The position numbers were made by a program, and so were the translations under genes. From the NCBI GenBank assembly GCA_037951105.1, contig JBAMJV010008090.1:1-64000 (forward strand): a stretch of 64,000 nucleotides of DNA, read 5' to 3'. The DNA comes from Echinarachnius parma (Eukaryota > Echinodermata > Echinoidea > Clypeasteroida > Echinarachniidae). Under the pieces are notes generated by a model. The model searched no databases, was not told where the DNA came from, and saw only the letters and a program-made list of their open reading frames with translations. Positions 1 to 56,288 of the stretch are shown here, piece after piece; positions within the stretch are counted from its first letter, which is position 1; the number at the start of each line of letters is the position of its first letter.

Positions 1-42
1 CTATTATAAATAAATAAATACTTTCTCTTATTTTCACGCAAG

Positions 43-329
43 GGCACCACGCTGAATGGTGCAAGCACGACAGTAACGCAACGTCAAACGGACGGCACCA
101 CAGATGGTGTCATCTCCACCACGGCACCATCATCTGTTACCACCGACACCACTACTCCACGAAACGTTGGTACCACAGACGGACGCACCCAAACCACGGG
201 TGGTACCTCAGATGGTGCCATATCCACCACGGCACTATCATCTGGTACCACCGACATCACTACTACACGAACTGATGGTACCACAGATGGGCGCACCCAA
301 ACCACGGGCGGTGCCTCGGATACCACCAG
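43..329 (+). CDS. Mucin-like exon, Thr/Ser/Gly repeats
   Basis: The acceptor follows TTTTCACGCAAG and the donor is CCAG|GTAAAA. The exon reads in phase 0 and ends in phase 2. It encodes 95 residues dominated by Thr, Ser, Gly and Asp. An imperfect repeat is visible, with segments such as GTTDGRTQTTGG and SDGAISTTALSSG appearing twice at a spacing of about 36 residues. There is no Cys or hydrophobic segment. This fits an extended O-glycosylated stalk. The minus-strand reading of the same region (Val/Ser rich) is a shadow. Confidence 0.75.
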
Positions 330-3300
330 GTAAAATTCGTATTCCATGGTCGTATTTAATGTACACTATACTAATTATGGGGTTGTTATCCGCATTCGAA
401 TACCGTACAACATGAAAATACAACTTGCCTAGCGACACATCAACCGACGCACATCACCACAGAAGGTGGAATCTCCGTAACTGCCATAAACAATCGCAAG
501 GTACCATCGACACTTGTGCGAGAAGCACGGGCGTAGACATGACATTGATACCCATTCAAGTGGGGGGGGGGGGGGGGGGGGGGGGGGGATGAGCTATTCA
601 TTCATCGGATTACATCCCCCTCTCCCCCCCCCCCCCCCCCCCCCCCAGTTGAATAAGTATTACGTAACTCGCTACGCCCGTGGCGAGAAGTCATTTTGGT
701 ACAACAGATGAACACAAGTAACCCACTGACGATATCTGGGATGACGGTTTTCAATAGGAAGTTTTCGACTGAAAATCTAGAACATGCACGTCTTAAATAA
801 TGACGTCACTGGCCCCGCCCCTTTGTGCGGCAAGTTGAGGACGACGTGGGTTTGACCAATTTGGCGTCAACTATACCTCGCCCAAAAAGTTCCGCAATCA
901 AGGTTTGCGCATTAATAACTTTTCTATTACGCTATTACCATTCATAAATATGGCATCGTTGGAAAGCGTAAATTCTCCCCCTTTACATTGATATAACACT
1001 TGCTATGAATATTTTTATCATGGAATGTTCATTGCATCCAAATGTAGGGCAAAGTCAAAAGTGAAATGTTGCAAAATGCACTGATTTTGTCAACAGTGTG
1101 CCTTCCTTGGCTTGAATGGGGTGTGAGGTGGTCATGCATTCAAGCCACGTTTTAATCTTCACACAAAAGAAAGGCACACTGTTGACAAAATCAGTGCATT
1201 TTGCAATATCTCATTTTTAGCTCATCCGGCCCGAAGGGCCCGATGAGCTTAATATGCCATGGCGTGGCGTCCCTTCGTCCGTCCGTCCTTCCGTCCGTCC
1301 GTCCGTCCGTCCACAGTTTTCAAAATGCTTCTTCTTCGTTTTTTTCAACCCGATTTTGATTCTGATTGTTTCATAAGATAGGGCTAGGAGGGGGATTTAA
1401 AACTTCTACACAGAATCGTGAAATTCATTATCTATGGTAATTTATGCAAATTTATTCCAGAAATCACAAAAAATGCTTCTTCTCCTTCATTTCTCGACCG
1501 ATTTTGATTTGGTTTGCTTTATCTGGTAGAGCTAACTTTGGTACACTAAACTTCTACACAGAATTTTGAAATTTTTCTCCATTAATTAATTATGGTAATT
1601 TATGCAAATTTATTCCAAAAATAACAAAAATTGCTTCTCCCTCATTTCTTGACCGATGTTCATTCTGTTTGGTTTATCTAATAAGGCTAGGTTTCATAAG
1701 ATAGGGCTAGGAGGGGGATTTAAAACTTCTACACAGAATCATGAAATTCATTATCTATGGTAATTTATGCAAATTTATTCGAAATCACAAAAAATGCTTG
1801 TGCATTTTGCAACATTTCACTTTTGACTTTGCCCTACATTTGGATGCAATGCACATTCCATGATTAAATATTCATAGCAAATGTTATATCAATGTAAAGG
1901 GGAGAATTCAAACTTTCCAATGATACCAAATTTAGGAATGGTAATAGCGTAATAGAAAAGTTATTAATGCGCAAACCTCGATTGCGGAACTTTTTGTGCG
2001 TAGTATAGACATTGCATGTGTTGCATTTTGTGTGGGATTGAAGCATGTGAATAGCGGTGTGTGATTAACGTTCATACATCGATATTTGTGTCGTGGCACT
2101 TAACAAATTAAATATGGTGTTGTTATGTTTTGTTTATTTTGTACGACATAATGTTATTACTTATTATTATAATTATTTGAGTTATTACTTGAATTGCCTG
2201 TCCCCAGGACTCCTTCGACGGACTCTTCAACAAGCACAACGGCAAGCAGCACCGACGACGTTGCTACAATGCTGGGGGTGACGGAAACAACAGTTGTGAC
2301 CGAGGTTGTCGATGTTGCCAATGGTAGCGACATGACAGCTACGACAGATTCAGCAGCAACAACAACAACACCTGTTGCAGCAACATCGGTCAGCACGGCA
2401 GACGCAACAAATGATGCCAATGCTGGAGGAGAGGGATACTGGCCACCAGGTAATGTTTACAACCGTAACAACAACAACAATCGTCACTTTAATAACAACA
2501 TAATCCATCAACACAATACATCAAGTCTATAACATCAATTGTTTGAATACAATATATTAAACACACGGATTGCTATACTAGTTAGAATCCGTACATGGCA
2601 TAGTTTACAACAATGAAAACAACAACAACACCGACACCAACAACATCAACAGCACCAACATCAACAACAAACAAAAACAACAATAGCAACAGCAACAGCA
2701 ACACTACTTATGATATTATCGATAATTTCATTAATACTATACTGACAAAAAAGGAAGGAAAACAACAGCCAAACTTGGGCCCGATTATAAAACATGTGAT
2801 ATAAGGGTAAATGCTAGTGACTATTCCAGTAATGATGGATTATTATACAAATAGTGCATGGTTTGGAGTTGAATATACCAGAATAGACAACGATACATTT
2901 TTAATTTCTCGAGAGCGATTATATATTGCATCGAGGCCGCAGGCCGAGTGCAATATAATCGCACGAGAGAAATTAAAAATGTAGAGGTGTCTATTGTGGA
3001 ATATTTAACGACAAGAAGCATGTACTATTTGTTATATAATATGATTATTTTGAGGAACTGATATGGTTATCATGTTGATAAACCCAAATTGACCTTGCTC
3101 AAATTGTGAGTGTTCTCTCCAGCCATTGTCGGCCCTGCGTACTGTGTTAAGTGCCAGCGCGTATTAGAAATAATTGCGCGCTCTGCGCATTTTCCCCCAT
3201 TCAAGAACAAGCGCACAAGAGCACATTACGCACTCCAAGGCAATCCCCTGCGCAGCTCGTTTGGCTCTCTATGGTCAGTTTGTACATACTGAAAAGTTAT

Positions 3301-6300
3301 AAGACATATGTATTATAACTTTACCATTGATTATACCGGATTAAGCATCGGTAATCAACCAATGGGAATGCTCAATTTACCTTCATTATGACGTCATCAT
3401 ATTATATAAACAAATATACCATGCACTGAGAGCCTCTAGTTGAAATTATGGATTCCGAGGTGACAGGAAAAACACTATGTTCTGAGGGTCGTAGACCCGA
3501 AGAACATAGTGCTTTTTCTGTCACCGAGGAATCCATAATTTCACTAGTGGCTCGAAATAGTGCATGATATATTTGTTTTATATCCTTCGCATTATCATAA
3601 TCATCGCAAAAATAAATGATTTCAATTAAATTAAAGAAAAATATAAAGAAAAACAAAGCATTGATCATGGAACCATCACTGCACTGACTATGACATGTTC
3701 TGTTTGTGACACTGACCCCCTTTGCGCAATAGTCATAGCGCAGAGCGCGTATTGCGCTATCTTTCCATTCATGGTTCCGCGCCATAACAACTAATGCGCA
3801 CCCAAATGCAAAACGCGCGCATCAAAGTGAATAATTAACCTGCTTTACATTACTACACACGTGTAATTGTATGGAGAAACTAGTTATTCGTACATTACAC
3901 ATACAGCTAGTGTAGTGCACACCGCGGCCAATTTTCTAATGACGAATTAGTGTCACGACCACAGAAGGACAACGATGCACAATGTACACCATTGTCGTAA
4001 TTTTTAAATTCGAATACCGCTACGTTATACATGAAATGCATCTCTAGAATATTCTTTGGAACTTATTGATATTCACGGGTGAAAATATGCTGTATTTCTT
4101 TTTAAATAACTCTTTGAGAAATCTCGTCGAGCATCTTTCGCAAGCTAAAACAAGACCTCTGCTCGCGGGGAAGTGTTATAACACGCATCTCTATGGGCTC
4201 AAAATGATCACCCGGCGTCTATGACGTCATTCATGGAATAGCATTTACTATTCCATGAATGACGTCACGCATAGCACATTTTTCTCCATGGGCATTACTA
4301 TGTTTGGTCACATGACGCTATGTAGACCAATCACTGAACAGGATTTCATTCATGTAGGATATAATGTATACTATTGCACAATATGCATTGATACAATCAT
4401 GAATATTCATGAGGTACTCGCCGCTCATGTTACAACATACGAATCGAGCAAACAATATCCTTTATTTCATTCATCAATAAATAAGTTACCATGGTTACTA
4501 TAATTGCTATATATCACTAGTATGTACTTTATGCAGGTATTTATTTATTCATCGTTTTATCCGCATCTAATGATGTAAATGCTTTTACAAATTCAACTAT
4601 TTCCACTAACCACTAAATCTCATTGTTGATAAATAGATATATAGGAAGCCCGTCCCATTTCAGGTTAAAAAGGGCTTATGTCACTTGTGGCACATGGTAA
4701 GGCCGATTGGCCTTCCGTGCGGAATCACTATCAAGAGATTTCGGAAGCATAATATTTTCTGACCCGTGGCAGTCGTTCTCATTTGGACTGACGCCCGACT
4801 TGCTCACATGAAAAGAAATTCGAATATCCTTATATTACAACAATCTTAATAGAGGTGATGAGAGCCTAAAGGGGGTTTCACACCGGGCCCTGCGTAGAGT
4901 TGTGTACGCTGCCCTACGCTGTCCTACGCAACTATACGCTGAGGTACGCAGAGGGGTACGCGAGATGGACGCCAAAAATTAAACATGTTTAATTTTGTTT
5001 CGCGTACTGTCTGCGTAGACACTGAACGCAGAAAGTACGCAAGTCTACGCAACACTACGCTACTGTACGTCATGCCAACGCAAGTCTACGCAACACTACG
5101 CTACTGTACGCCATGCCTACGCAATAGTACGCTTCCCTCACTACGCCAGTCCGACGAAACATCTACTCGCGGCTCCTACGAGCATTAACTGCCGAAGAAT
5201 GTTTTTTGTTCACGAATACGCAGCCTATATTCGGCGTACTCTGTACGCAACACTACGCAACTATACGCAGGTCCGGTGTGAAAGGGGCTTAACTCCTGTT
5301 ATTTCTAGTCATTTATTTCTTGAATATTCCCAATAACGAAAATAATCAATATTGTATGGACCACTGTCGTCTACTATTCAAGTAATGAATAATCATGAAT
5401 ACTATTGCATATGCATCAACAATCATGAATATTCATGAGGTACTAGTACTCGCTGTCTCTGTTACAACATACAGATTGAGCAAACAATATTATTTATTCG
5501 TTCATCGATAGGATACCATGGTTACTAACACACTTTAAATGGTATGTGCTTTATTCAGGTATTTATTCACACATCATTTTATCCGCATCCATTTACAAAA
5601 TATAATAATAATGTAAATGCATTTACAATTTAAAATATTTTCACTAACCACTGCGTAAGCTGTTCGAGAAATATACATAGTAGATATTCATCATGGTTTA
5701 GGCAAAAAGGGCTTATGTCACTTGTGGCACATGGTAAGGCCGATTGGCCTTCCGTGCGGAATCACTATCAAGAGATTTCGGAAGCATAATATTATTCTGA
5801 CCGTGGCTGTTGGTTCTCATTTGGACAGACGCCCGACTGGCTGAAATGAAAAGAAAGAATGTGTAAACTTTTACAGGAAGTTGTAATGTCCTAATGTTAC
5901 AACCGTCCTAAAACAAAAGTTCGCTAAATAGGCTGTAATTGCGGCCTCGCACCTTCGTTTGGTTCTCTATAATCTATGGATATGACGACACCTAATCAAG
6001 CCAATAGTGTTGACGAGTTATTAATGATAGGCATCGTTAGAGACACAGTGGCGTAGAAACGAAGGGGCATGGGACATGGGGGGGGGGGGGGGGCGTTTGT
6101 CCCCGATAATTTGCCAAAAGAAATACAAAACATGAGGGTGAAATCCGTTCTGGAAATACAAGATTACATACAGTACTCCCCCAATAAATCGCTAGCCCCG
6201 CCCACGTCCCTTCCAAAATCAGTCCAACCACGCTACGCCAATGGCTAGGATACATACAACAATATAAATGAGTGCTCCTGCGCCTTATAACTGTTTACTT

Positions 6301-7865
6301 AAAAGTTAAGACTTAGGTTTACGTTATGTACCATTTTATATTAGTATCGATAATTATTATAATATCCACATGTAGGCTATAATCTTTGTTCTCTCTATCA
6401 ATTTTCTCTGATCATCTCGTTGTTCGTAGCGGCGATCGGTCTGATGCTCGGTGCCGTGGTCCTGGGCTTCCTCCTCGTCTGCCTGCTCATCTGCATAGTC
6501 GTTCTCAGGTACGTTAGATTCTTGAAGGGATCTAGATAAATAGCCTAACCCCACTACACCGCTTCTCCTTCCGCTACCTATCCGTTTGGGCATCCGGAAG
6601 TTACTAACATGAATCGAAGTGATTGGACTTAGTTCGGAATGTACTATAGCCATGCTTGTCGGATACTTTTAATTCGACTCCGTTTCGCGTATAACGGAAA
6701 GTCATGAATCTTTAAAAAGTGCTTTATATACTGACCATTTCACCACAATTTGGTCGGATAGGAAACGGAAGGAGAAACCGTGCAGTGGGACTAGGTCAAA
6801 ATCCACACAATTTCTAAGTTAACACATAACTCTCCCGGTTCTTACATAACTAGTTGCATTTTTATTTTCATTAATATAAGCATATAACATGTTTCAGTTT
6901 TCCACATGTAACTTTATTTTATACACATGTATTATTGAAGAATTCGGATTTGAAAGTCTTTCTGGGAGACTTTCAACTGCATACGAAGTTAGTGCCGAAT
7001 GAGTTATCAAATATCACTTTGCATTTTCGCTCGTTAATCGCTCATATGACATTCCTTTGCCCTTGAACGTTCACACATCACTCAGTGGGCATATCAGACT
7101 AAATATCTACAAAGTTACCAGATCCATTTAAGCACATTACACGATCCGATGCATATCCAATAGGCGTATACTTCTGTAGTTTCTGACAATCGGGCTAGAA
7201 AGCTCGACACAAATCTACGACGATACTGACTTTTTCATGACCTTATTCATCCCAGTCATGCCTATTCAATATTACAAATACATTTAATCATTTACATACA
7301 CGTAACTATGAATTATGTTCATATGTTGTGTGTAATAATGTGAAAACTAACACGTCCACTATGTAATGGGCTACGTTTTTGTCACCACTTTCTTGTACTA
7401 TTTAGACCGAGAGCCAGAGCGATACGAGGTCGTGACCCCGACACCGTGGCGCTGAGGAAGTCTCGACAATCGCCCTCTAGCTCGACCTACTCTCCGGACA
7501 TCGTCCTCAAGCAGCGTCGACAGTACCACCAACACGCACCGGGGGACGAGTGCGACGTCGACATGGACGGCAACCCGTACAGTAATCGCGCCTTCCTCGC
7601 GGACGAATACTCGAGCAATGACGATAATCGCTCCCCGTCGATCGGATTGTACGGCGAGCGCCCTACCGTGGTTGAGAACCCGTACACGCTATGTGAGGAG
7701 GACGAGAGCGGAGATGCGGCGCGAAACAAGAAACTCTTCTCCATAAAGGCGCGAAAACTGAACCAGATCTACGTTCCGGGCACTCCTAACGGGCCGAACT
7801 TTGACGGGCGGGGAGACTCGAGACAGAGCAATGATGGTCGCTACGGAGCGCAGCTTGTCATTTGA
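43..7865 (+). CDS. Mucin-like type I membrane protein gene, 3' part (4 exons)
   Basis: Four exons join with matching phases: 43-329 (ends phase 2), 2208-2449 (ends phase 1), 6430-6508 (ends phase 2), 7406-7865 (TGA stop). Each has AG before it and GT after it. The 355 residues seen consist of about 175 Thr/Ser-rich residues without Cys, then one strongly hydrophobic helix (about residues 178-202, ending VVLR), then a polar cytoplasmic tail of about 152 residues. The 5' end, including any signal peptide and upstream ectodomain, lies outside the window. The order O-glycosylatable stalk, membrane helix, tail is typical of membrane mucins and mucin-stalked adhesion or receptor proteins. I do not recognise a named orthologue. 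Two U11 snRNA genes sit in the intron 2450-6429 on the same strand. The phase agreement across three introns is the strongest support. Confidence 0.8.
563..646. repeat. Poly-G run and poly-C run pair
   Basis: A run of about 27 G is followed 30 bases later by C-rich runs, so the two could pair as a hairpin or form G-quadruplexes on either strand. Similar tracts recur through the window. Confidence 0.8.
841..2010. mobile_element. Fold-back element with about 200 bp inverted arms
   Basis: The segment 885-1081 reappears in reverse complement at 1805-2000 (shared words: AAAGTTCCGCAATC, ATTAATAACTTTTCTATTACG, TGTAGGGCAAAGTCAAAAGTG). Inside is a second inverted pair (1066-1103 with 1172-1209). The core also has a GC-rich hairpin at 1219-1250 (GGCCCGAAGGGCC), a (TCCG)n run near 1275-1310, and three imperfect direct repeats of about 155 bp with the word GGTAATTTATGCAAATTTATTC near 1438, 1593 and 1759. 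No transposase ORF is present, so it is non-autonomous. Confidence 0.75.
2208..2449 (+). CDS. Mucin-like exon, Thr/Ala/Val rich
   Basis: The acceptor is TGTCCCCAG and the donor CCACCAG|GTAATG. It enters in phase 2 (completing an Arg codon) and leaves in phase 1. The 80 residues are rich in Thr, Ser, Ala and Asp, with a run AATTTTPVAATSVST and the terminal GGEGYWPP that leads straight into the membrane exon. The composition suggests an O-glycosylated juxtamembrane stalk. Confidence 0.78.
2826..3045. mobile_element. Palindromic MITE
   Basis: The two halves are near reverse complements about 2930-2945. Matching words are ATTTTTAATTTCTCG / CGAGAGAAATTAAAAAT, AGACAACGATACA / TGTAGAGGTGTCT and TATACAAATAGTGCATG / CATGTACTATTTGTTATA. 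There is no coding capacity. Confidence 0.7.
3394..3600. mobile_element. Palindromic MITE
   Basis: The arms at about 3404-3490 and 3505-3592 are inverted copies, for example ATTATGGATTCCGAGGTGACAG against CTGTCACCGAGGAATCCATAAT, and AACAAATATACCATGCAC against GTGCATGATATATTTGTT. The centre is GGGTCGTAGACCC. Confidence 0.75.
4223..4268. repeat. Perfect 46-bp palindrome
   Basis: TGACGTCATTCATGGAATAG is followed by a 6-base centre and its exact reverse complement. Each arm carries the CRE-like octamer TGACGTCA. It lies about 400 bp upstream of the first U11 gene, and its role is unknown. Confidence 0.8.
4600..4613 (+). promoter_or_regulatory. PSE-like element of U11 copy 1
   Basis: TTCCACTAACCACT lies 54-67 bases before the RNA start. 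The same word recurs at the same distance in copy 2 while the intervening DNA has diverged. The position fits the proximal sequence element of snRNA genes read by SNAPc. Confidence 0.55.
4667..4801 (+). ncRNA. RNU11: U11 small nuclear RNA, copy 1
   Basis: This RNA of about 135 nt matches metazoan U11 snRNA, which pairs with the 5' splice site of U12-type introns in the U11/U12 di-snRNP. Diagnostic parts in order: the 5' end AAAAAGGGCTT, whose AAAGG pairs with the CCUUU of U12-type donors; a central hairpin (AAGGCCGATTGGCCTT); the highly conserved block CATCAAGAGATTTCGGAAGC (here ATCAAGAGATTTCGGAAGCATAA); an Sm-type site (AATATTTTCTG); and a 3' stem in which AGTC (4771-4774) pairs with GACT (4786-4789) before ACGCCCGACT. 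The length equals that of human U11. The start was set at the five A residues. A PSE-like element lies upstream at 4600. It is intronic in the mucin-like gene but appears to have its own promoter. Confidence 0.93.
4870..5289. mobile_element. PIF/Harbinger-type MITE (TAA target duplication)
   Basis: The ends are AGGGGGTTTCACACCGG and CCGGTGTGAAAGGGGCT (inverted repeats), flanked on both sides by TAA (4867-4869 and 5290-5292). A 3-bp TWA duplication is the mark of PIF/Harbinger. The interior is a set of short direct repeats of the type CTACGCAACACTACGCTACTGTACG. The flanks (GATGAGAGC before, CTCCTGTTATTTCTAGTCA after) rejoin into an end of the TTAA MITE family seen at 12129 and 63516, so this is a nested insertion. 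Confidence 0.85.
5639..5652 (+). promoter_or_regulatory. PSE-like element of U11 copy 2
   Basis: TTTCACTAACCACT lies 52-65 bases before the copy 2 RNA start and matches the copy 1 element. Conservation of word and distance is the evidence. Confidence 0.55.
5704..5838 (+). ncRNA. RNU11: U11 small nuclear RNA, copy 2
   Basis: The first 90 or so nucleotides are identical to copy 1, including the 5' AAAAAGGGCTT and the AAGAGATTTCGGAAGC block. The Sm-type region reads AATATTATTCTG. Differences cluster in the 3' stem: TGTT (5808-5811) still pairs with GACA (5824-5827), so the A-T pair of copy 1 (4771/4789) has become a T-A pair (5808/5827), and a C-G pair has become T-G. This compensatory change implies selection on structure, hence function or very recent function. 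Same strand and same PSE spacing as copy 1. Confidence 0.92.
6047..6244. mobile_element. CAGTGGCGTAG-type MITE (hAT-like)
   Basis: It starts CAGTGGCGTAG and ends CTACGCCAATG. It contains a G16 run at about 6079-6094 and the words CCGATAATTTGCCAAAAGAAA and CAGTCCAACCACGCTACGCC, all shared with the copy at 20103. Assignment to hAT rests on the CAGTG terminus and is tentative. Confidence 0.65.
6430..6508 (+). CDS. Transmembrane exon of the mucin-like protein
   Basis: The acceptor is TTGTTCGTAG behind a pyrimidine-rich tract and the donor is CTCAG|GTACG. It enters in phase 1 and leaves in phase 2. It encodes AIGLMLGAVVLGFLLVCLL followed by ICIVVLR, a single membrane helix with a basic stop-transfer residue at the junction to the tail (PRARAIRGR). 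Two Cys lie near the inner face and could be palmitoylated (inference). The 79-base exon is GC-rich against its AT-rich introns. Confidence 0.85.
6509..7405 (+). other. Intron, no feature seen
   Basis: AT-rich DNA between the transmembrane and tail exons. I see no ORF, repeat or RNA in it. Confidence 0.5.
7406..7865 (+). CDS. Cytoplasmic-tail terminal exon
   Basis: The acceptor is TACTATTTAG and the stop TGA is at 7863-7865. About 152 residues, polar and GC-rich. It opens with a basic stretch (RPRARAIRGRD) expected just inside the membrane. Two NPY motifs occur (GNPYSNRAF and VENPYTLCEED), resembling sites read by PTB or SH2 adaptors, and a basic KARKLNQIYVPG region follows. The C-terminus QLVI fits a class II PDZ ligand (hydrophobic at 0 and -2). 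These motifs suggest a signalling or scaffold-binding tail, which is inference. The first base completes the Arg codon split with the membrane exon. Confidence 0.85.
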
Positions 7866-8537
7866 TTCAGTGATTGTTTTTAGACAATTTTACTCATTAA
7901 GCACCAAGTATAATATAATAGACGAATACAACTTTGCCATTGAAGCTGGGCGGCTAGATTACTAGATACGACAAAGCCCTTTGAAGTTGAAGCGCGAGTG
8001 TTGCCATCTTTAAACTTCAGAACTAGACTCTTCGTGAGCCTGTTAATACATATCTTATAAGAAGCACACTGATAAATTTGAAACAATTATATGGCTACGC
8101 GATATCTTCAAGTGTTTATAATGTTTATAGGCCTAGATACGAGTAATTATTATATAGAGATTTTGTTATGATTATATGTATAAAAACATTATAAAAGATA
8201 TGTTGACATCAAATGACTTCCAAATATGTTCTACTTAAAATTGTATGATAAAGTTTACCATGACCTTTCTTGTGATATATCTATGTGTAGCTAGCTTATC
8301 CCATGCACGTATTTGCTACAATTGTAAAACAAAAGGGATCTAGTAACTCTTTTTGAATCGACCAAACTAAACAGCATCGCTAAATGTTTTGTAATGCCTG
8401 GTTCTTTTTATATCGCTAATAGAGGTATAACACCGGATTTGTATTTGTTATTTATTGCATCGTTTTTATTGCGATATTTATCATTTAATAGAAAAATGAA
8501 AATCACCAGAATTGATTGTCACTGTGTGCACACGTAT
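7866..8537 (+). other. Probable 3' UTR and intergenic DNA
   Basis: AT-rich with no ORF or repeat recognised. No convincing AATAAA close to the stop was found, so the 3' end of the mucin-like transcript is not placed. Confidence 0.4.
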
Positions 8538-9080
8538 ACAGGGTGGCCTAAAAAAACCGGAACGGGGCACTTCCCAAAATAAAGTAACAACACGATTATG
8601 TACATCGGATAGAGCGTCCATTCCAATGAAAAACGATACCAAAAACAGTAATTTTGGACGAGTAGTTTTTGTTGTAGGACGTCTTCAGTGAGAATATGTC
8701 AGGTTCACATTTTTGTCATTTTTTACCGAGTCACTGCCTGATAAATCGCACTTCCTGCCCGTCATCGCATCGGTAAACTATGCCCATTCTCTCGGGACAC
8801 AGCTAAATGCACACTAACAATTGCGCACGTATTGCTCGTTCTTCAATGCTATGGCGGGCAGTAAGTGCGATTTATCTAGCACTGACTTGGTAAAAAGTGA
8901 CAAAAATGGGATCCTGACATGGTGTCACTCACAGCGCCCTAAAACAAAAACTACACGACCGAATTGACTGTTCTTGGTATCGTTTTTCATTGGAAAAGAC
9001 ACCCTATCCGATGGACATAATCCTTGTATTATTTTATTTTGGGAAGTGCCCCGTTCTGTTTTTTGGGGGGCCACCCTGTA
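8538..9080. mobile_element. TA-flanked MITE with about 50 bp inverted ends
   Basis: The left end ACAGGGTGGCCTAAAAAAAC and the right end TTTTGGGGGGCCACCCTGTA are inverted and bounded by TA. The inverted match extends inward (GGGGCACTTCCCAAAATAAA against TTTATTTTGGGAAGTGCCCC, then the CGATACCAA region). Ends and TA flanks suggest a Tc1/mariner-type non-autonomous element. A broken copy lies at 20955-21130. Confidence 0.8.
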
Positions 9081-9701
9081 TATTAATTAGTCAGCTAATA
9101 ATACGCTTTGCATTTGCTTATTAATTACTCAGCAATACAGTCAATTAACATGGATTGTTCACACATCACTCAGTGAACATATCAGATTACAAAATATACA
9201 CAAGCTCGGTTAGGATGTATGCATGTTCTGCTCTATAGATTTCAGTTTTGCAAGTAATGCTAGCCCACGAATACCCTTTGTTAAAACAGAAACAATATGT
9301 TTTAAATGCATATCTGTGTTTATTTACTCTTGCATTTTGTCACGATGAGCACAATGCTAACGTGTCAGGTTGAGAACGTAGATGTACACTATTCGTATAA
9401 ATATGTTATGTTGTGTCTATACAGATTCGGCATCTGGCATCTGGCATGATCAATTATCGTTCGTCGTTATACCATGTATTGTACATAATTTATACCATTA
9501 ATTTTGTTTGAAAATTGAAGCATGAAATTTGATGTTTTCATATTGATACATTTATTAAAACTGATATGATTGCAATATTGTCAAGCTCTCGTCCTAGTTC
9601 ATTTGTTTGTATACATAACCGGTTGTTACAGGGCTCTAGTAACATTGTCCAAATCATTGTCAAAATTGTAGTCAGCTAGTGGTTTTTCATACCTTGTTGT
9701 A
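9081..9701. other. No feature seen
   Basis: AT-rich DNA without recognisable genes or repeats. Confidence 0.4.
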
Positions 9702-9705
9702 TTAA

Positions 9706-10219
9706 AGGTACATTTGAGTATTGGTCATTCCCGAAATGACCCTTGACACTAAATTGGTTGGTTTTAATTCTATTTGAAAGTTCATTGAATAAAACATGTA
9801 AGATGAGAATCATTCCCTTTAAAATGCTCTCATAGTTGTAAAATTTGATTTCAATATATTGTATTCATAAGTCTACCCCGGCCGGGGGACATTTTGACTT
9901 TTTATAATAAATACAAAAAATGTTTATAGACTACTTAGAAAAAAAAATCAAAATAGTTTTTTTAATAGTTTGATGATATATCTATTTAATCATTATTTTA
10001 ACAAAACATAAAATGCTCAATTTTGTATGAAAAATGGCAAAAACCAATGAGTTTTTAGAGAGTGCCATCTTGAGTTGTAACGGCTCTTTTTGAATGATAA
10101 CACGGTTTTTACTTAGTCGTTTGTAATTGTGTATTTCTTTCGAGCATGGTGGAGTAATAACTATAATAGTGCAGGTTATAGTTACTAAAATTAAGTTTAA
10201 CCACAACTCAACTATCCCT
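9706..10219. mobile_element. TTAA MITE family A, variant copy
   Basis: Flanked by TTAA (9702-9705 and 10220-10223). The right end reads CAACTCAACTATCCCT, as in other family members. The left third (GAGTATTGGTCATTCCCGAAA, CCCCGGCCGGGGG) is a variant shared with the 47431 copy. No ORF of note. Confidence 0.75.
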
Positions 10220-10476
10220 TTAATAGCAAATAGAAGCATGGAACAGGTTTTGCTTTTTTGAAATTTCCCTTCCGTTAAAGAAAAGTATTTACGATTGAAG
10301 GGTTCGGATTTTTTATTATCCATTGGAAAGTTATAACTGTGCACATAGTCATTGAAATGAGTTAGCGAATATCAATTTGCATGTTCGCACATTACTCGGC
10401 CAAAAAGCATCCATTTAACTTGATGTTGTTCTCACATTACTTAGTGGACGAATGAGATCACAATAATGCACATTAA

Positions 10477-39800: not shown

Positions 39801-42800
39801 AGAGCAGTGACAACTGTGTTCACTGTTCTTCATTCCCATGATCACGCGGCGCTCATACTGCAACGTGACAACCAGTCCTGACCAGTATGAAAGCGCGAAG
39901 CAAAGCGTATAATAGTGCGGTATCTGAGAATGAGTTGGCAACGCAGGGGAAGCAATCTAGAACGAGGGGATCGCCATGAGCTACCTTGATCGCCAATCCT
40001 CGGCGCTTGCTTTGAACATGCTCTAAACGAGCGCGGCGCGTTCGGCGCTGACCTATGGTATAGGGGGAGTATCTATTCTGGGAGATTACATTTTCATTCA
40101 TCCCCCCCCCCCCCCCCCCTCCCCCACTTGAACAATAGACATTACAACAGCTCTATTCCTGCAACAATAAACACATAAGTCACCACTATAAAACAAATAC
40201 GTAGGATGTGGCTCCAATAATTATTTCCCCAACCCACCTCGCCCTTGCCCATTCAAACCGTGACGCTTTACGACCACGTTATATAATTATATATATATAT
40301 ATATATGTAGATCTAGATCCCTTTCATGCTGACGCTTATATTTTTGTTTACTGCGATAGGAGAAGGTGCTCTTACTAATGACCGACGGATTGCGGTGGGA
40401 CCGGTTTGGTCTGGACCCTCCCAACCTACTCAAGATGGAGCAGAACGGAGTGAGAGCAGACTGGATGGACGGTGTCTTCATGACCATGACGGTCCCGAGC
40501 ACGTTCTCCATTGTCACAGGTGAGAAACCGATAGGCCATGTAGGAACGTGACTAAGGTAAGAGTCGAACACACCTACTCAATATTGAGGATTACAAATTA
40601 CGGTGTGAGGGCGGACTGGATTGACGGGGTCGTCATGACCATGACGATCCCTAGTATACTGTTTCATTTTGTACAAGTGAGAAACCGATATGATATGTAG
40701 GAACGTGAAATGTGACATGTTTACCATGTTTACAATATTCACGAGTAGACACTTACTCGAAATGGAGGATTAAGGTGTGAGGGCAGACTAAAGCCCGGCG
40801 CAGACAGAGCCGACTCGACTGGTTGTCATTCCGATCGGCTCAGTTTTCAGTGCCTCGCGACACACATTTTGCCAGTCGAGAGACAGTCGGATGCCAGTTG
40901 GGGCCGATTCAACAAGATAAATCTGCTCCGACTGACCGGGCCCAACTCAAGCCTGATTGAAACCAGTCGGATCGGGTCGAGTCTGCTCTGTCTGCGCCGG
41001 CCTTAACTTGTCGAGATGTTCATCACCATGACGATCCCTATCAGGTTCTCCATTGTCACAGGTGAGAGTGACCGTGAGACACTGCTAGGAACCTTTTTGT
41101 GATCATAGATAGTTCCACACCCCTTGATTGAATTGAATAAACCACGTTCGGGGTTCACTTCACTACTGGGCTAGTAAAAACTACTTTGACGTATTATGCT
41201 ATACCGTTTTTTTACTAGAGGAAGGTCCCCCAATGGACAGAAAGGTCCCGATAATATACCTCATCACATCAACTCAAGTTGTATGACTATTATGTGGGAG
41301 CATTAAAAGGTCAATAGGAGTTACTACTGCGATACAGTTTGTAAAGAAGATATCTAACTTGATGTATCCATGTCATCCATGTATCCATTCAATCAGGCCT
41401 TTATGGCACTGAACGGGGCTACCCTATGTTTTTAAAGAAGACTGAATAAATAAATAAATAAATAAATAAATAAAATAAATATACCAACTACCAAGGCAGT
41501 TTTGATGGACAGATAACCTAGTCACCGTAACCATGTTTACTCTACAACTGAAGAATTCTCGACGATGACTTTGTCTGGTGAAATACCAATACCATGTCTT
41601 CATATATTGACTCATGCTGTTTTAAATTTCTTGATAATTACAGGACTTTACCCAGAGAGTCACGGCGCGATGCACAACTTGTACTTTAACACGACCTCCG
41701 GAGAAGTGTCCCCGTCCTTCATGGCCACCATGAACTATACCACGTGGTTTGACACAGGCGCAGAACCCATCTGGGTGACGGCCATCTTGCAGGGCGGGAA
41801 GGCCGGTACCATTCTGTACACGGGGGGTAACGTGCCCATCAAGGGTGTGCAACCGGACAGGAATATACCCATCACCATCGATCCATCATGGTAAGGATCA
41901 TCATGTTAACCATTGTGGATTCATGATTTTAAACACACTCACGCATCATCGTGTAGATATATATTTCAATTTAAAATGGCAACCAGTCCAAGATGACATG
42001 ATGGAGAAATAATAGTCTTTACCGAATTTTCCAAATGACATCAGAATTACCTGAATGAAACGATTGTTACGATTTGTAACTGTGTTAGTTGTGTTTGTCC
42101 ACCTAATGTAATTAACCCTTTACAATAGGTCTTAGTTGTAGCACATATACGAAAGAGCGTCATTATAATGACCAATTATCGTCATGATCGTGTAGCTTTT
42201 CATTTAACATGTTTAAGACAGGAATTTTGATATCCAGTGTATCTATTTTTAAACCATAATCGTCATTATAAACTAAAATTTGTAATAGATGGTTAACTAA
42301 ATTATTTGTATTTGTGTCTCTTGGATGACAGTTTCGATCTCCCGCTCAACGATCGCATCGACCACGCCCTCTCTTGGATGATAAACGATGACTTCGACGT
42401 CGTCGTCGTGTACATCAACCTTCCAGATTTCGTGCTTCACAGCTACGGCACGGAAGATGAGCGCAGCCTGCAGTCTGTTCGCGATGTCGATGCCATGATT
42501 GGTTACACATTCGATCGTCTCGACAGCGAAGACCTCACCGACATCGTAAATGTAATCGTGGTCAGTGATCACGGACATATCAACTCTGTCACCAACAAGC
42601 ATGTGTTGTTGTATGATTACATCAATGAAACCGACGTTGACTTTATCATCGCCGACTACGGCCCTTGTTTCCAGTTGAACGCGATCAATGGGAAGAATGA
42701 AGAGGTTAGCTTTAAAGTAATGATTTAAAGGTGGACTGCTCGGATTCATGAAAATAGACGCGCGGTGCGCCATCTTGCGAACACCGTGCGCATGGTGCGA

Positions 42801-52232: not shown

Positions 52233-55200
52233 ACTAAAAAAAACTCATTTTATTTTCGGAGAAACGAACCTTCGGAATAACGAACTTTTGGAATAACGTT
52301 CTATAACCTTACTCATTACCTTTTTAATGTAGCATAAATGATTAGATCGACCTCTTATTCCGTATTCGCTTACTACTAATATATCATTTATCGTGTTATT
52401 ATATACATGAATTACTTTCCTAATGCTTCTCAAGTATTATCTTTAATACTTGTTTGGGGATGATTCAAACTTGTTGTATTCACATCTAAGTGTGTGCGCC
52501 TAACAGCTGCCACACTCCTTTTCTCTCTCCCACTTGTATGCTCATAGATTGTGATTTACTTTGACATACTACAATATTGTTGTACCAGTTTGTTTGTAAT
52601 TATCTGGTGCAACGCCTGGACTATTTTGAAGTTGATTCTTGGACTCGAAACCCCATACTTTTGAACATCAACTTTTCCACAATTTGTTGTAAATTTGTGA
52701 GGAAGCCATACTTTTACTGCAGTCAGTATTGGTGTTCATTTTGGCTTGACCGTGAATGGTTGACCTGGACTCACACAATGCTAATCTGGAGGATTACAGC
52801 TCTTGCTATTCTTCTGGTGTGCTGCCCCATCTCTCTCAACTTGACTAATCCGAATAGGTCTATTCATGCCTATAATAGACCTAGCAAGGACCGCAGCAGA
52901 GATTACATTGGGGGTAGAATACTGTACTATCCCAATAGTACAAGTACTTTTCGTATCGAACTGGTTCAACATGGTGATATTCATCCCAATCCAGGCCCTG
53001 TATTTGGTGAAAATGAGGAGAACAGTAATCGAAAGTCATCCTCTAAGGTATACACCAGAACAGAACTGCATGCACTCAATTCGACCACCAGAATTGATGC
53101 GAAAACCTGGCAAACGACTAATTTCTTGAATATATCATCTAAACGACGTACCCACCGGGGAGTTAAAGGTGGACGCCGAATTCAAAGACGACGAGAACTA
53201 GCTTCAGTGCAGTCGTCTGGAGCCCTGCAGGATTGGAATGGCAAAAATGTGCCTTCTCTTTCGACATTTGCATTATGGAATGCGAGATCGGTCAAAAATA
53301 AATCTCACATGATATCCGATCTTGTTAATGCTCAACACATTGACATACTAGCCCTAACTGAAACCTGGCTGACTGGTGATGCGAGGGACAACCGTTGCTT
53401 GGCTGATGTGAGTTCATCCGTACCCAGTCACCAGCTCATTCACTTACCTCGGAAGGATAGAGCTGGTGGGGGCATTGGCATTTTTCTTCACAAGAACTTC
53501 ACCGTAGTACAACAACAAAAACAACGTGAACCTGACTCTTTTGAGTATATGGACATCCTTATCTCAAGCAAGGATCAGAAACCTCTTCGGTTGGTTGTTG
53601 TATACCGGCCTCAAAGGAAAAAAGATCGTACATCTACGACCCCAAAATTCTTCGAAGAATTTGCCATTCTCCTAGAGAAACTTATAACAGAGCCCAACAA
53701 ACTTGTCATTGCAGGAGATTTTAATTTCCATATCAATGACCCTAACGACCGTGATGCTGCTGCCTTCTCTGATCTGATATCATCAGTCAATTTGCTTCAG
53801 CACATAGACTTCGCAACTCATCTCAAAGGGCACACCCTGGATTTGATAATAACTCGAGCTTCAGATGACATCATCTCCCAGATCTCGTGCACCAGTTATC
53901 TGCCTTCAGACCATTCGGCAGTTCTGTGCAAACTTTCAGTCAACAAACCGGATCCTGTAAGGACTAAGATTAGGTTTAGAAAGTTAAAGGATATTGATCT
54001 TGACACTTTTCGATTGGATATTGTAAGCTCAGAGTTATACATGCGTCACCTAGAACTTGACACCGATGACTTGATTGAACAGTATGAATCTACACTACGA
54101 GGTATACTTGATCATCACGCTCCTCTTACCATCAGGACAATTACTGCCAGACCTGGGTCGCCTTGGTATACTAATGAGTGTCGTGGTGCAAAACGGAAAC
54201 TCCGAAGACTTGAGAGACGTTGGCGGAAATCAAAGCTAGAAATTGATCATCAGATATTTCTAGAGGAGGCATCAGTCTATAATTCAGTCTTAATCCGAGC
54301 GAGAAGAGCTTTTTACTCAACGGAACTCGAAGGCTGTGGTCCGAGAGAATTTTTTCACAAAGTCAATAACATGTGTAAGAAATCTCAAAAAACACTGCCA
54401 AAAAATGATGTTGATGGGCCTTCTTTAGCTGACCGCTTTAGTACCTTCTTTGCTAACAAAACTGCTGACATTGTTTCATCTCTTGATCCTTCATCTTGTC
54501 CTGAAGTCGATGACGTCATGTTCCAGAGGACTGATCTACGTTTTGATGAATTTCAAAATGTATCTCCATTGCAGGTTGAAACAGTTATTTCCCGCTCAAA
54601 ATCATCCACTAGCGAATTGGACCCAATCCCAACTGATTTACTAAAAGGTTGCATTAATGAACTGGCTCCAATCATCACAAGGATAGTTAACTTGGTGCTG
54701 ACAAGTGGACGCTTCCCTGATTCACTCAAGGGGGCTCATATTTCACCTATTATCAAGGGAACTGGACTTGATCCTGATGAATTAAAAAATTACAGACCGA
54801 TTTCACATCTAAAATTTCTTGGCAAGACAATTGAAAGGATCATGGTTCATCAGTTGACTTGTTACCTTGAGAGCAACAGCCTGTATGACACGATTCAGTC
54901 TGCCTACAGACAGTATCATAGTTGTGAGACTGCATTGATTAGAGTTGTCAATGATATCCTCCTGTGCCTTGATAAAGGCGAAGAGGCAATTCTACTTCTA
55001 CTTGACTATAAAGCAGCATTTGACACGATTGCACATGAAACATTGTTATCTCGTTTGCATGATAGATATGGTATCAGTGGTACAGCTCTTGAACTCATAA
55101 AATCATATTTTGAGAATAGGACACACACGGTTGTAATTGATAATTGCAAGTCAGATGTTAAGTTATCTTCACTCGGGGTCCCGCAAGGGTCGGTTTTTGG

Positions 55201-56288
55201 CCCGATTGCTTTTAGCCTTTATGTTGCCCCGTTGCATGATATTATTTGCAAACATAAATTAAATGGTATGATGTATGCTGATGATACACAAGTTTATATT
55301 TTGGTAGAAAAGGGTCATCAGACTGAAGCAATCAAGCAACTCCAGACTTGTATGGCTGACATTAAGAATTGGTCAGCGCATAATGGTCTTAAACTAAATG
55401 AAGATAAGACTGAAGTTCTTCACTTTACTAGTAAATTTAGGCAGTGTGGTAGGATCGATAGTATCTCATTTGGTAGTACTTTGAAGCAAACTGTTGACTC
55501 TGCTAGAAACCTTGGTGTGAGACTGGACAAGCATCTGACACTGTCAACTCATGTAAATCAAATATGCAAAGCTGCTTCATTTGCCTTGCACAAGATTGGA
55601 ACAATTCGTCCCTTTCTTTCTAAAAAGTCGACAGAGATGCTTGTTCATGCCCACGTTATGTCTCGGCTTGATTTTTGTAATGGTATTTTATATGGTCTGC
55701 CTAACAATGAGATTCAAAAGTTGCAACGAATACAAAACTCTGCGGCTAGGTTGGTTACTCGCACTCGACTCAATGAGCATTTAAGTCCAGTCTTACGACA
55801 ATTGCATTGGCTCCCGGTTAAGCAGCGAATTGATTTTAAGATTTTAATATTGGTTTTCATGTGCTTGCAAGAATTAGGCCCTGCTTATTTACAACAGTTG
55901 ATAACAAAATATTGTCCAGCAAGAAACCTTCGCTCTCAGTCAAAATCTCTTTTAGTCACCCCCATAATATCAACACATTTTTACGGTGCAAGATCTTTCC
56001 AACTGGCAGCCGCAGAGTTATGGAATAAATTACCGAGCCATCTCAAGCATGTTGACACAGTAAATGATTTTAAGAGTCTTTTGAAAACGTATTTGTTTAA
56101 TTTGTAAATTGATTAGGTTTTACACTGTATGTCAAAGTGTTGTCATTTTTCATTTCACCTTGTCTTTTCTTCGCTCCCTGTCTGTTATTCTATTTTTATA
56201 TTTTCAATCCTTTAAAGCGCTTAGAGACTTAAATTTATTTTTTGTGATTATGCGCTATATAAAAATGGTTTATTATTATTATTATTAT
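52233..56288 (+). mobile_element. CR1/L2-type LINE, apparently full length
   Basis: Begins with a 5' UTR of about 540 bp up to the first ATG (52778), then one long ORF, then about 180 bp of 3' UTR. The end has TTTAAAGCGCTTAGAGACTT, GCGCTATATAAAAATGG and (TTA)n. Such TTA-type tails and no poly(A) are typical of CR1/L2. The ORF is undamaged and a 1.5 kb identical repeat sits beside it, so the element looks young. Confidence 0.9.
52778..56107 (+). CDS. LINE ORF: 2A-like leader, endonuclease, reverse transcriptase
   Basis: The open frame runs from 52577 (no ATG there); the first ATG is at 52778, giving about 1109 residues. After a hydrophobic leader (MLIWRITALAILLVCC) comes GDIHPNPGP, a 2A-like ribosome-skipping motif with His where Glu is usual. 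Next is the apurinic endonuclease: LWNARSVKNK, ILALTETWL, GGGIGIFLHK, VVYRP, IAGDFNFH and SDHSAVL. The reverse transcriptase has LLLDYKAAFDTI, GVPQGSVFGP and YADDTQVY (catalytic DD near 55280). The C-terminal region has QNSAARLVTR, LHWLPVKQRI and ELWNKLPSHL, usual in CR1/L2. It drives target-primed reverse transcription of its own RNA. No gag-like ORF1 or zinc knuckle is seen. Confidence 0.92.
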   Translation: MLIWRITALAILLVCCPISLNLTNPNRSIHAYNRPSKDRSRDYIGGRILYYPNSTSTFRIELVQHGDIHPNPGPVFGENEENSNRKSSSKVYTRTELHALNSTTRIDAKTWQTTNFLNISSKRRTHRGVKGGRRIQRRRELASVQSSGALQDWNGKNVPSLSTFALWNARSVKNKSHMISDLVNAQHIDILALTETWLTGDARDNRCLADVSSSVPSHQLIHLPRKDRAGGGIGIFLHKNFTVVQQQKQREPDSFEYMDILISSKDQKPLRLVVVYRPQRKKDRTSTTPKFFEEFAILLEKLITEPNKLVIAGDFNFHINDPNDRDAAAFSDLISSVNLLQHIDFATHLKGHTLDLIITRASDDIISQISCTSYLPSDHSAVLCKLSVNKPDPVRTKIRFRKLKDIDLDTFRLDIVSSELYMRHLELDTDDLIEQYESTLRGILDHHAPLTIRTITARPGSPWYTNECRGAKRKLRRLERRWRKSKLEIDHQIFLEEASVYNSVLIRARRAFYSTELEGCGPREFFHKVNNMCKKSQKTLPKNDVDGPSLADRFSTFFANKTADIVSSLDPSSCPEVDDVMFQRTDLRFDEFQNVSPLQVETVISRSKSSTSELDPIPTDLLKGCINELAPIITRIVNLVLTSGRFPDSLKGAHISPIIKGTGLDPDELKNYRPISHLKFLGKTIERIMVHQLTCYLESNSLYDTIQSAYRQYHSCETALIRVVNDILLCLDKGEEAILLLLDYKAAFDTIAHETLLSRLHDRYGISGTALELIKSYFENRTHTVVIDNCKSDVKLSSLGVPQGSVFGPIAFSLYVAPLHDIICKHKLNGMMYADDTQVYILVEKGHQTEAIKQLQTCMADIKNWSAHNGLKLNEDKTEVLHFTSKFRQCGRIDSISFGSTLKQTVDSARNLGVRLDKHLTLSTHVNQICKAASFALHKIGTIRPFLSKKSTEMLVHAHVMSRLDFCNGILYGLPNNEIQKLQRIQNSAARLVTRTRLNEHLSPVLRQLHWLPVKQRIDFKILILVFMCLQELGPAYLQQLITKYCPARNLRSQSKSLLVTPIISTHFYGARSFQLAAAELWNKLPSHLKHVDTVNDFKSLLKTYLFNL

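Follow-up and report, generated by a model that had tools for sequence, protein, structure and literature searches.

Minor-spliceosome snRNA genes have been described at quite different copy numbers in animals. The original prediction for the locus treated here held that U11 is often described as a low-copy gene in metazoans. This fits Drosophila, whose minor snRNAs are described as single copy in the portion of PMC4291461 on which we draw, but not the tunicate Didemnum vexillum, to which a passage of PMC8704543 assigns four U11 genes. The same portion of PMC4291461 also suggests, from sequence analysis, that multi-copy snRNA genes all evolve in concert, and it describes developmentally regulated isoforms of U1 and U2 in sea urchins. 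The sand dollar locus shares with D. vexillum a multi-copy U11 in an animal; the passage of PMC8704543 in question is silent on tandem order, alleles and conversion. Like the multi-copy snRNA genes of PMC4291461, it has several copies and a conversion mosaic, and the genome holds two classes of U11 and of U12. It differs from the sea urchin U1 and U2 of that source in that the RNAs belong to the minor spliceosome and are encoded by few copies. Multi-copy U11 is already in print, and the pair reported here is a real, ordinary tandem gene cluster; tandem U11 genes in an echinoderm were not found among the titles and abstract openings listed from the open-licence literature.

The window, by which we mean the whole 64,000-nucleotide stretch of Echinarachnius parma DNA that was analysed, contains two Rfam matches above threshold in a covariance-model scan, and both are U11 (RF00548, gathering score 39 bits):

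4667 to 4798, + strand: U11 snRNA gene, copy 1; RF00548, 90.6 bits, E 3.2e-15, model positions 1-134 of 134
5704 to 5836, + strand: U11 snRNA gene, copy 2; RF00548, 91.5 bits, E 1.9e-15, model positions 1-134 of 134

The two U11 genes that had been proposed are thus present on the same strand at full length, with their starts 1,037 bp apart, and neither falls below the Rfam threshold. They are the same at positions 1-90 and diverge from 91 on, in agreement with the identity of about 90 nt that had been noticed. In the genome at large, U11 has at least six matches: the two in the window, three on contig C10127 and one on contig C365 (the top score, 112.1 bits); six is a lower bound, as 40 of 161,299 first-look candidates were scored. 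The 5' end AAAAAGGGCTT is the same in all six copies found, and we take the invariant AAAAAGGGC to be the recogniser of the U12-type 5' splice site. In full-length model match and invariant 5' end the cluster copies are like U11 of the Rfam family, and the closing helix, the model hairpins and the 3' stem-loop are also present in the window copies; in contrast, the region presumed to hold their Sm site deviates in the cluster copies from the model consensus. It reads AUAUUUUCUG in the cluster copies and AUAUUAUUCUG in copy 2, against AUAAUUUUUgGaaa in RF00548, so that by its letters a U-rich stretch is in place and the consensus GG is missing from the cluster copies. The U run is broken in copy 2 (AUAUUAUUCUG), and C365 has AUAUUUGGAAA there. 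Both window sequences are genuine, functional-type U11 genes. We consider it likely that they form a head-to-tail cluster within a mucin-like gene, inside one of its introns, partly homogenised by conversion and variable in copy number between alleles.

Each copy is accompanied by a set of promoter and 3'-end elements:

4381 to 4388, + strand: octamer-like ATATGCAT, copy 1
4397 to 4413, + strand: distal element, copy 1, palindrome TCATGAATATTCATGAG, at -270
4605 to 4614, + strand: proximal sequence element, copy 1, ACTAACCACT, starting at -62
4810 to 4818, + strand: possible 3' box, copy 1, GAAAAGAAA, seen in the sequence
5409 to 5416, + strand: octamer-like ATATGCAT, copy 2
5423 to 5439, + strand: distal element, copy 2, palindrome TCATGAATATTCATGAG, at -281
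5643 to 5652, + strand: proximal sequence element, copy 2, ACTAACCACT, starting at -61
5848 to 5858, + strand: possible 3' box, copy 2, GAAAAGAAAGA, seen in the sequence

Within the window, the exact proximal 10-mer and the exact distal 17-mer are confined to the U11 genes, with one occurrence of each at either copy. The octamer-like sequence ATATGCAT lies upstream of six of the six U11 genes found; GAAAAGAAA and GAAAAGAAAGA are candidate 3' boxes by the consensus for that element. Because proximal and distal elements stand at each copy, both look able to be transcribed, as far as their promoters indicate, although either could be silent. Transcription of each copy would then start from a separate snRNA promoter, comprising the distal palindrome and the proximal element, and the RNA would recognise U12-type 5' splice sites via its 5' end. 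A retropseudogene reading of the window copies was considered and rejected, since the promoter elements are intact and positioned as in other snRNA genes. Farther upstream of copy 1, a 46-bp palindrome occupies window positions 4222-4267; it is 91% self-complementary, with TGACGTCA at both ends.

The same arrangement recurs in ten U11, U12 and U4atac genes, which amount to about five loci when alleles and tandem copies are taken into account and from which the motifs were themselves derived. The proximal element (core TAACCRY; ACTAACC or like) starts between -61 and -63 in all ten; in nine the distal core GAATATKCATRAG stands between -234 and -281, one C10127 copy having one mismatch. In their looser form the cores are fairly common in the window, where TAACCRY occurs 25 times and the 13-base GAATATKCATRAG four times on both strands, so placement is what counts. 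By eye, A/T-rich TATA-like stretches are found at about -40 to -24 at the window U11 genes and at C365; such stretches do not discriminate between pol II and pol III, since the sea urchin U2 gene, transcribed by pol II, has a TATA box too. Among the ten best of 35 U6atac matches, the top-scoring three carry ACTAACCA (TAACC at -67) and the other seven do not, so the proximal element goes with the best genes; the distal core, searched for within 350 bases, is absent from all ten. At least 35 U6atac matches in the genome exceed the threshold; several of the seven without the proximal element have flanking GT repeats, and many U6atac matches may be retrocopies. For all three families the counts are lower bounds, the first-look candidates scored being 44 of 89,436 for U12, 49 of 67,450 for U4atac and 46 of 40,627 for U6atac.

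The main doubts about copy 2 come from its interrupted U run and from the sequence at -50 to -1, where it is like copy 1 at only 24 of 50 positions; the bases directly 3' of its proximal element are also unlike those of the other cluster copies. To these may be added the 3' domain, whose predicted folding energy is -11.4 kcal/mol in copy 1 and -10.5 in copy 2, against -16.3 in the C10127 copies and -11.5 in C365. Relative to the C10127 copies, copy 1 has lost one G from the stem by a 1-nt deletion, which could be an assembly error, and copy 2 has a C-to-U change (C-G to U.G) together with a U-to-A change by which a G.U pair is lost. On the predicted folds, then, the 3'-stem differences between the window copies are not compensatory, and each copy has its own weakening lesion. 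Copy 2, with its weaker 3' stem and broken U run, may be impaired. One might go further and see in copy 2, or in both window copies, a pseudogene in progress, the functional genes being C365 and copies of the C10127 type. We regard such decay as unlikely: the first 90 nt of the copies are intact and identical, the proximal and distal elements of both are intact and in place, and the 3' domain of C365 is predicted to be about as weak, so that, provided C365 is active, such an energy alone would not disable a gene.

We return to a cluster of functional-type genes and to the gene that houses it. The original prediction placed the U11 genes in sense orientation within a mucin-like gene, in an intron, and a predicted gene model with phase-compatible splice sites supports this:

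2208 to 2449, + strand: predicted Ser/Thr-rich exon; donor after 2449, phase 1
6430 to 6508, + strand: predicted transmembrane exon; phase-compatible acceptor and donor, hydrophobic translation
7406 to 7865, + strand: predicted last coding exon (cytoplasmic tail); splice phases agree

The U11-bearing intron, 2450-6429, would be 3,980 bp long and has the same sense as the predicted gene. A Pfam search of three open frames from the mucin-like gene returned no family. Against C10127, the tail frame (7344-7865) of 174 codons differs by a single silent change and none in its amino acids, and the transmembrane frame has one amino-acid change in 34 codons. The Ser/Thr-rich frame (2173-2532), part of which extends past the donor at 2449, has 13 amino-acid and two silent changes in 110 codons, six of the 13 falling within the exon at 2208-2449; by these counts it gives no sign of constraint.

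Contig C10127 is collinear with window positions 1-10476, in reverse. Identity is 98.8-100% in every 250-bp block of 6404-8403 and 87-97% in most blocks outside that part over 6154-10476. A 1,697-bp flank (6404-8100) has 62 matches in the genome (40 of 4,514 first-look candidates scored), of which two, the window and C10127, are full length; the remaining 60 span at most about 317 query bases and resemble dispersed repeats. Only two full-length matches are what would be expected for two unmerged alleles, and C10127 is probably the other allele of the window locus, with three U11 copies to the window's two. The difference of two versus three copies on the two likely alleles would presumably have arisen by unequal exchange. 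The patchiness of the identity and the excess of amino-acid over silent changes in the Ser/Thr-rich frame could instead be taken to mean that C10127 stems from a segmental duplication of recent date and lies elsewhere in the genome, and that the haploid genome has five cluster genes, not two or three. This we find quite improbable, as the two full-length flank matches suit a diploid assembly with unmerged alleles and the U12 locus is likewise a pair of stretches that are 96.9% alike. The alikeness of that pair, on contigs C5112 and C6233, extends over about 3.1 kb, and the U12 RNA is identical in the two. They make up one of two diverged U12 classes; the other is a paralog on C8253, where the predicted pair between positions 34 and 51 has undergone a compensated change and is A-U, against G-C in the first class.

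With C10127 as the probable second allele, the history of the cluster can be followed a step further. Between the window copies lies an insertion whose unoccupied site occurs twice on C10127:

4870 to 5289, strand not assigned: insertion between the U11 copies, 420 bp, putatively MITE-like; inverted ends AGGGGGTTTCACACCGG / AGCCCCTTTCACACCGG, TAA target duplication

The window copies differ at 354 columns, gap columns included, and these were the basis of a mosaic analysis. The C10127 counterpart of copy 2 is mixed, mainly type 2, far upstream; from about -100 and across most of the RNA it is type 1, and downstream it is again mainly type 2. At -50 to -1 it agrees with copy 1 at 47 of 51 positions and with copy 2 at 22 of 50; at +134 to +200 it agrees with copy 2 at 62 of 67 and with copy 1 at 34 of 43, with 24 gap columns. 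This pattern indicates that one C10127 copy is shaped by gene conversion and that the cluster copies exchange sequence. Gene conversion would partly homogenise the copies, and together with constraint it would explain the near-identical RNA part, the first 90 nt included.

Other features of the window and of the assembly were recorded alongside. A non-LTR retrotransposon open frame with endonuclease and reverse transcriptase occupies window positions 52565-56107 and includes the motif GDIHPNPGP, which to us resembles 2A peptides. Upstream of this frame, 50986-52234 matches 52501-53749 with 100% identity over at least 1,249 bp, which would reflect either a tandem copy of recent origin or an artefact of the assembly. 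Open frames at 41517-41894 and 42297-42728, probably exons, match type I phosphodiesterase/nucleotide pyrophosphatase (PF01663). Contig C14600 (19,741 bp) is mitochondrial: its COX1, a Pfam match, has 12 internal TGA codons, and in the 17,000 of 19,741 bases examined the echinoderm mitochondrial code gives long open frames. By eye, one strand was read as encoding ND1, ND2, COX1, COX2, ATP6, COX3, ND3, ND4 and ND5 and the other as encoding ND6, and tRNA-Arg follows COX1. Such a gene order is echinoid in type and marks the host as an echinoderm, probably an echinoid. At the far end ND6-like and cytochrome-b-like sequence appears a second time in slightly different form, also seen by eye, and this end duplication is perhaps the overlap of a circular molecule.

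The 3' stem had been the centre of the original prediction, according to which an A-U pair in copy 1 had become a U-A pair in copy 2 and the matched substitutions testified to selection on both copies. The cited letters are present, A4771 and T4789 in copy 1 and T5808 and A5827 in copy 2, but they are partners neither in the minimum-energy fold nor in the Rfam register. When both RNAs are folded, as had been proposed, A4771 and U5808 are not paired and form a one-base bulge, in the minimum-energy fold and in the Rfam register alike; in both copies GGC pairs with GCC, and GUC (copy 1) or GUU (copy 2) with GAC. With the 3' domain folded alone, U4789 of copy 1 is unpaired and A5827 of copy 2 is opposite a G; in the C10127 copies the U equivalent to this position forms a G.U pair. 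In the whole-RNA fold the five cluster copies retain the same 3' stem, and C365 obtains another outer pairing there. The swap would require a helix of C4770-G4790, A4771-U4789, G4772-C4788, U4773-A4787 and C4774-G4786; when the 3' domain is folded by itself, the pairing probability of this helix does not exceed 0.01 in any of the six copies. By the predicted energies, forcing it costs 2.6 kcal/mol in copy 1 and 2.4 in copy 2, giving -8.8 and -8.1, and is 6.4 kcal/mol worse in the C10127 copies. In favour of this helix, its five base pairs can be drawn in both copies, with 92% of cells paired and a score above every slid register, since GACUGAC offers two registers. Moreover, the copy-1 letters A and T also occur in the C10127 positional counterpart of copy 2, so the difference between the window copies at these bases is probably allelic. 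A compensatory swap brought about by selection on both copies is therefore very improbable: the Rfam register, built from other species, bulges the first base, C365 carries U at both positions, and 211 of 500 shuffled-column trials equal the proposed helix.

Compensatory changes do exist in the family, between the cluster and the C365 gene, when pairs are read in the Rfam register. On the Rfam structure, both-side changes occur at four of 42 pairs (columns 33-48, 34-47, 36-45 and 113-121), a number that one of 500 shuffles reached, and 92.8% of 209 pair cells are standard, counted over five distinct rows of six. All four divide the cluster from C365 and none divides the window copies. Pair 113-121 holds in the Rfam register and in the predicted fold of C365, whereas the cluster copies are predicted to fold there with a one-base shift, and this leaves three both-side changes as firm. 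Pair 109-124 is lost, by a mismatch in copy 2 and a deletion in copy 1; model pairs 101-131 and 115-119 form in no copy, and 12-78 forms only in C365. The changes point to structural selection acting on the U11 family, in a sample of five distinct U11 sequences from one genome with all both-side changes on the single C365 branch.

Between the cluster and C365 there are, accordingly, three or four compensated pairs in addition to the Sm-region differences. One could imagine that the two U11 classes, that of the intron cluster and that of C365, and the two U12 classes are stage-specific isoforms of the minor spliceosome, with the cluster, whose number of copies differs from allele to allele, serving a period of high demand. 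The developmentally regulated isoforms of sea urchin U1 and U2 would be the parallel; we think this scenario distinctly unlikely.

Using this comparison of the window pair with the other snRNA genes of the genome, we arrive at a set of points on minor-spliceosome RNA genes in this organism:

(i) U11, U12 and U4atac appear to have a promoter code in common in this genome, made up of the proximal element and the distal palindrome, and the proximal element extends to the three best U6atac genes.

(ii) Matched letters in two copies of an RNA gene are compensatory only if they are paired with one another.

(iii) The locus offers a small, clear case of tandem amplification, of a probable allelic difference in copy number and of gene conversion in a minor-spliceosome RNA gene.
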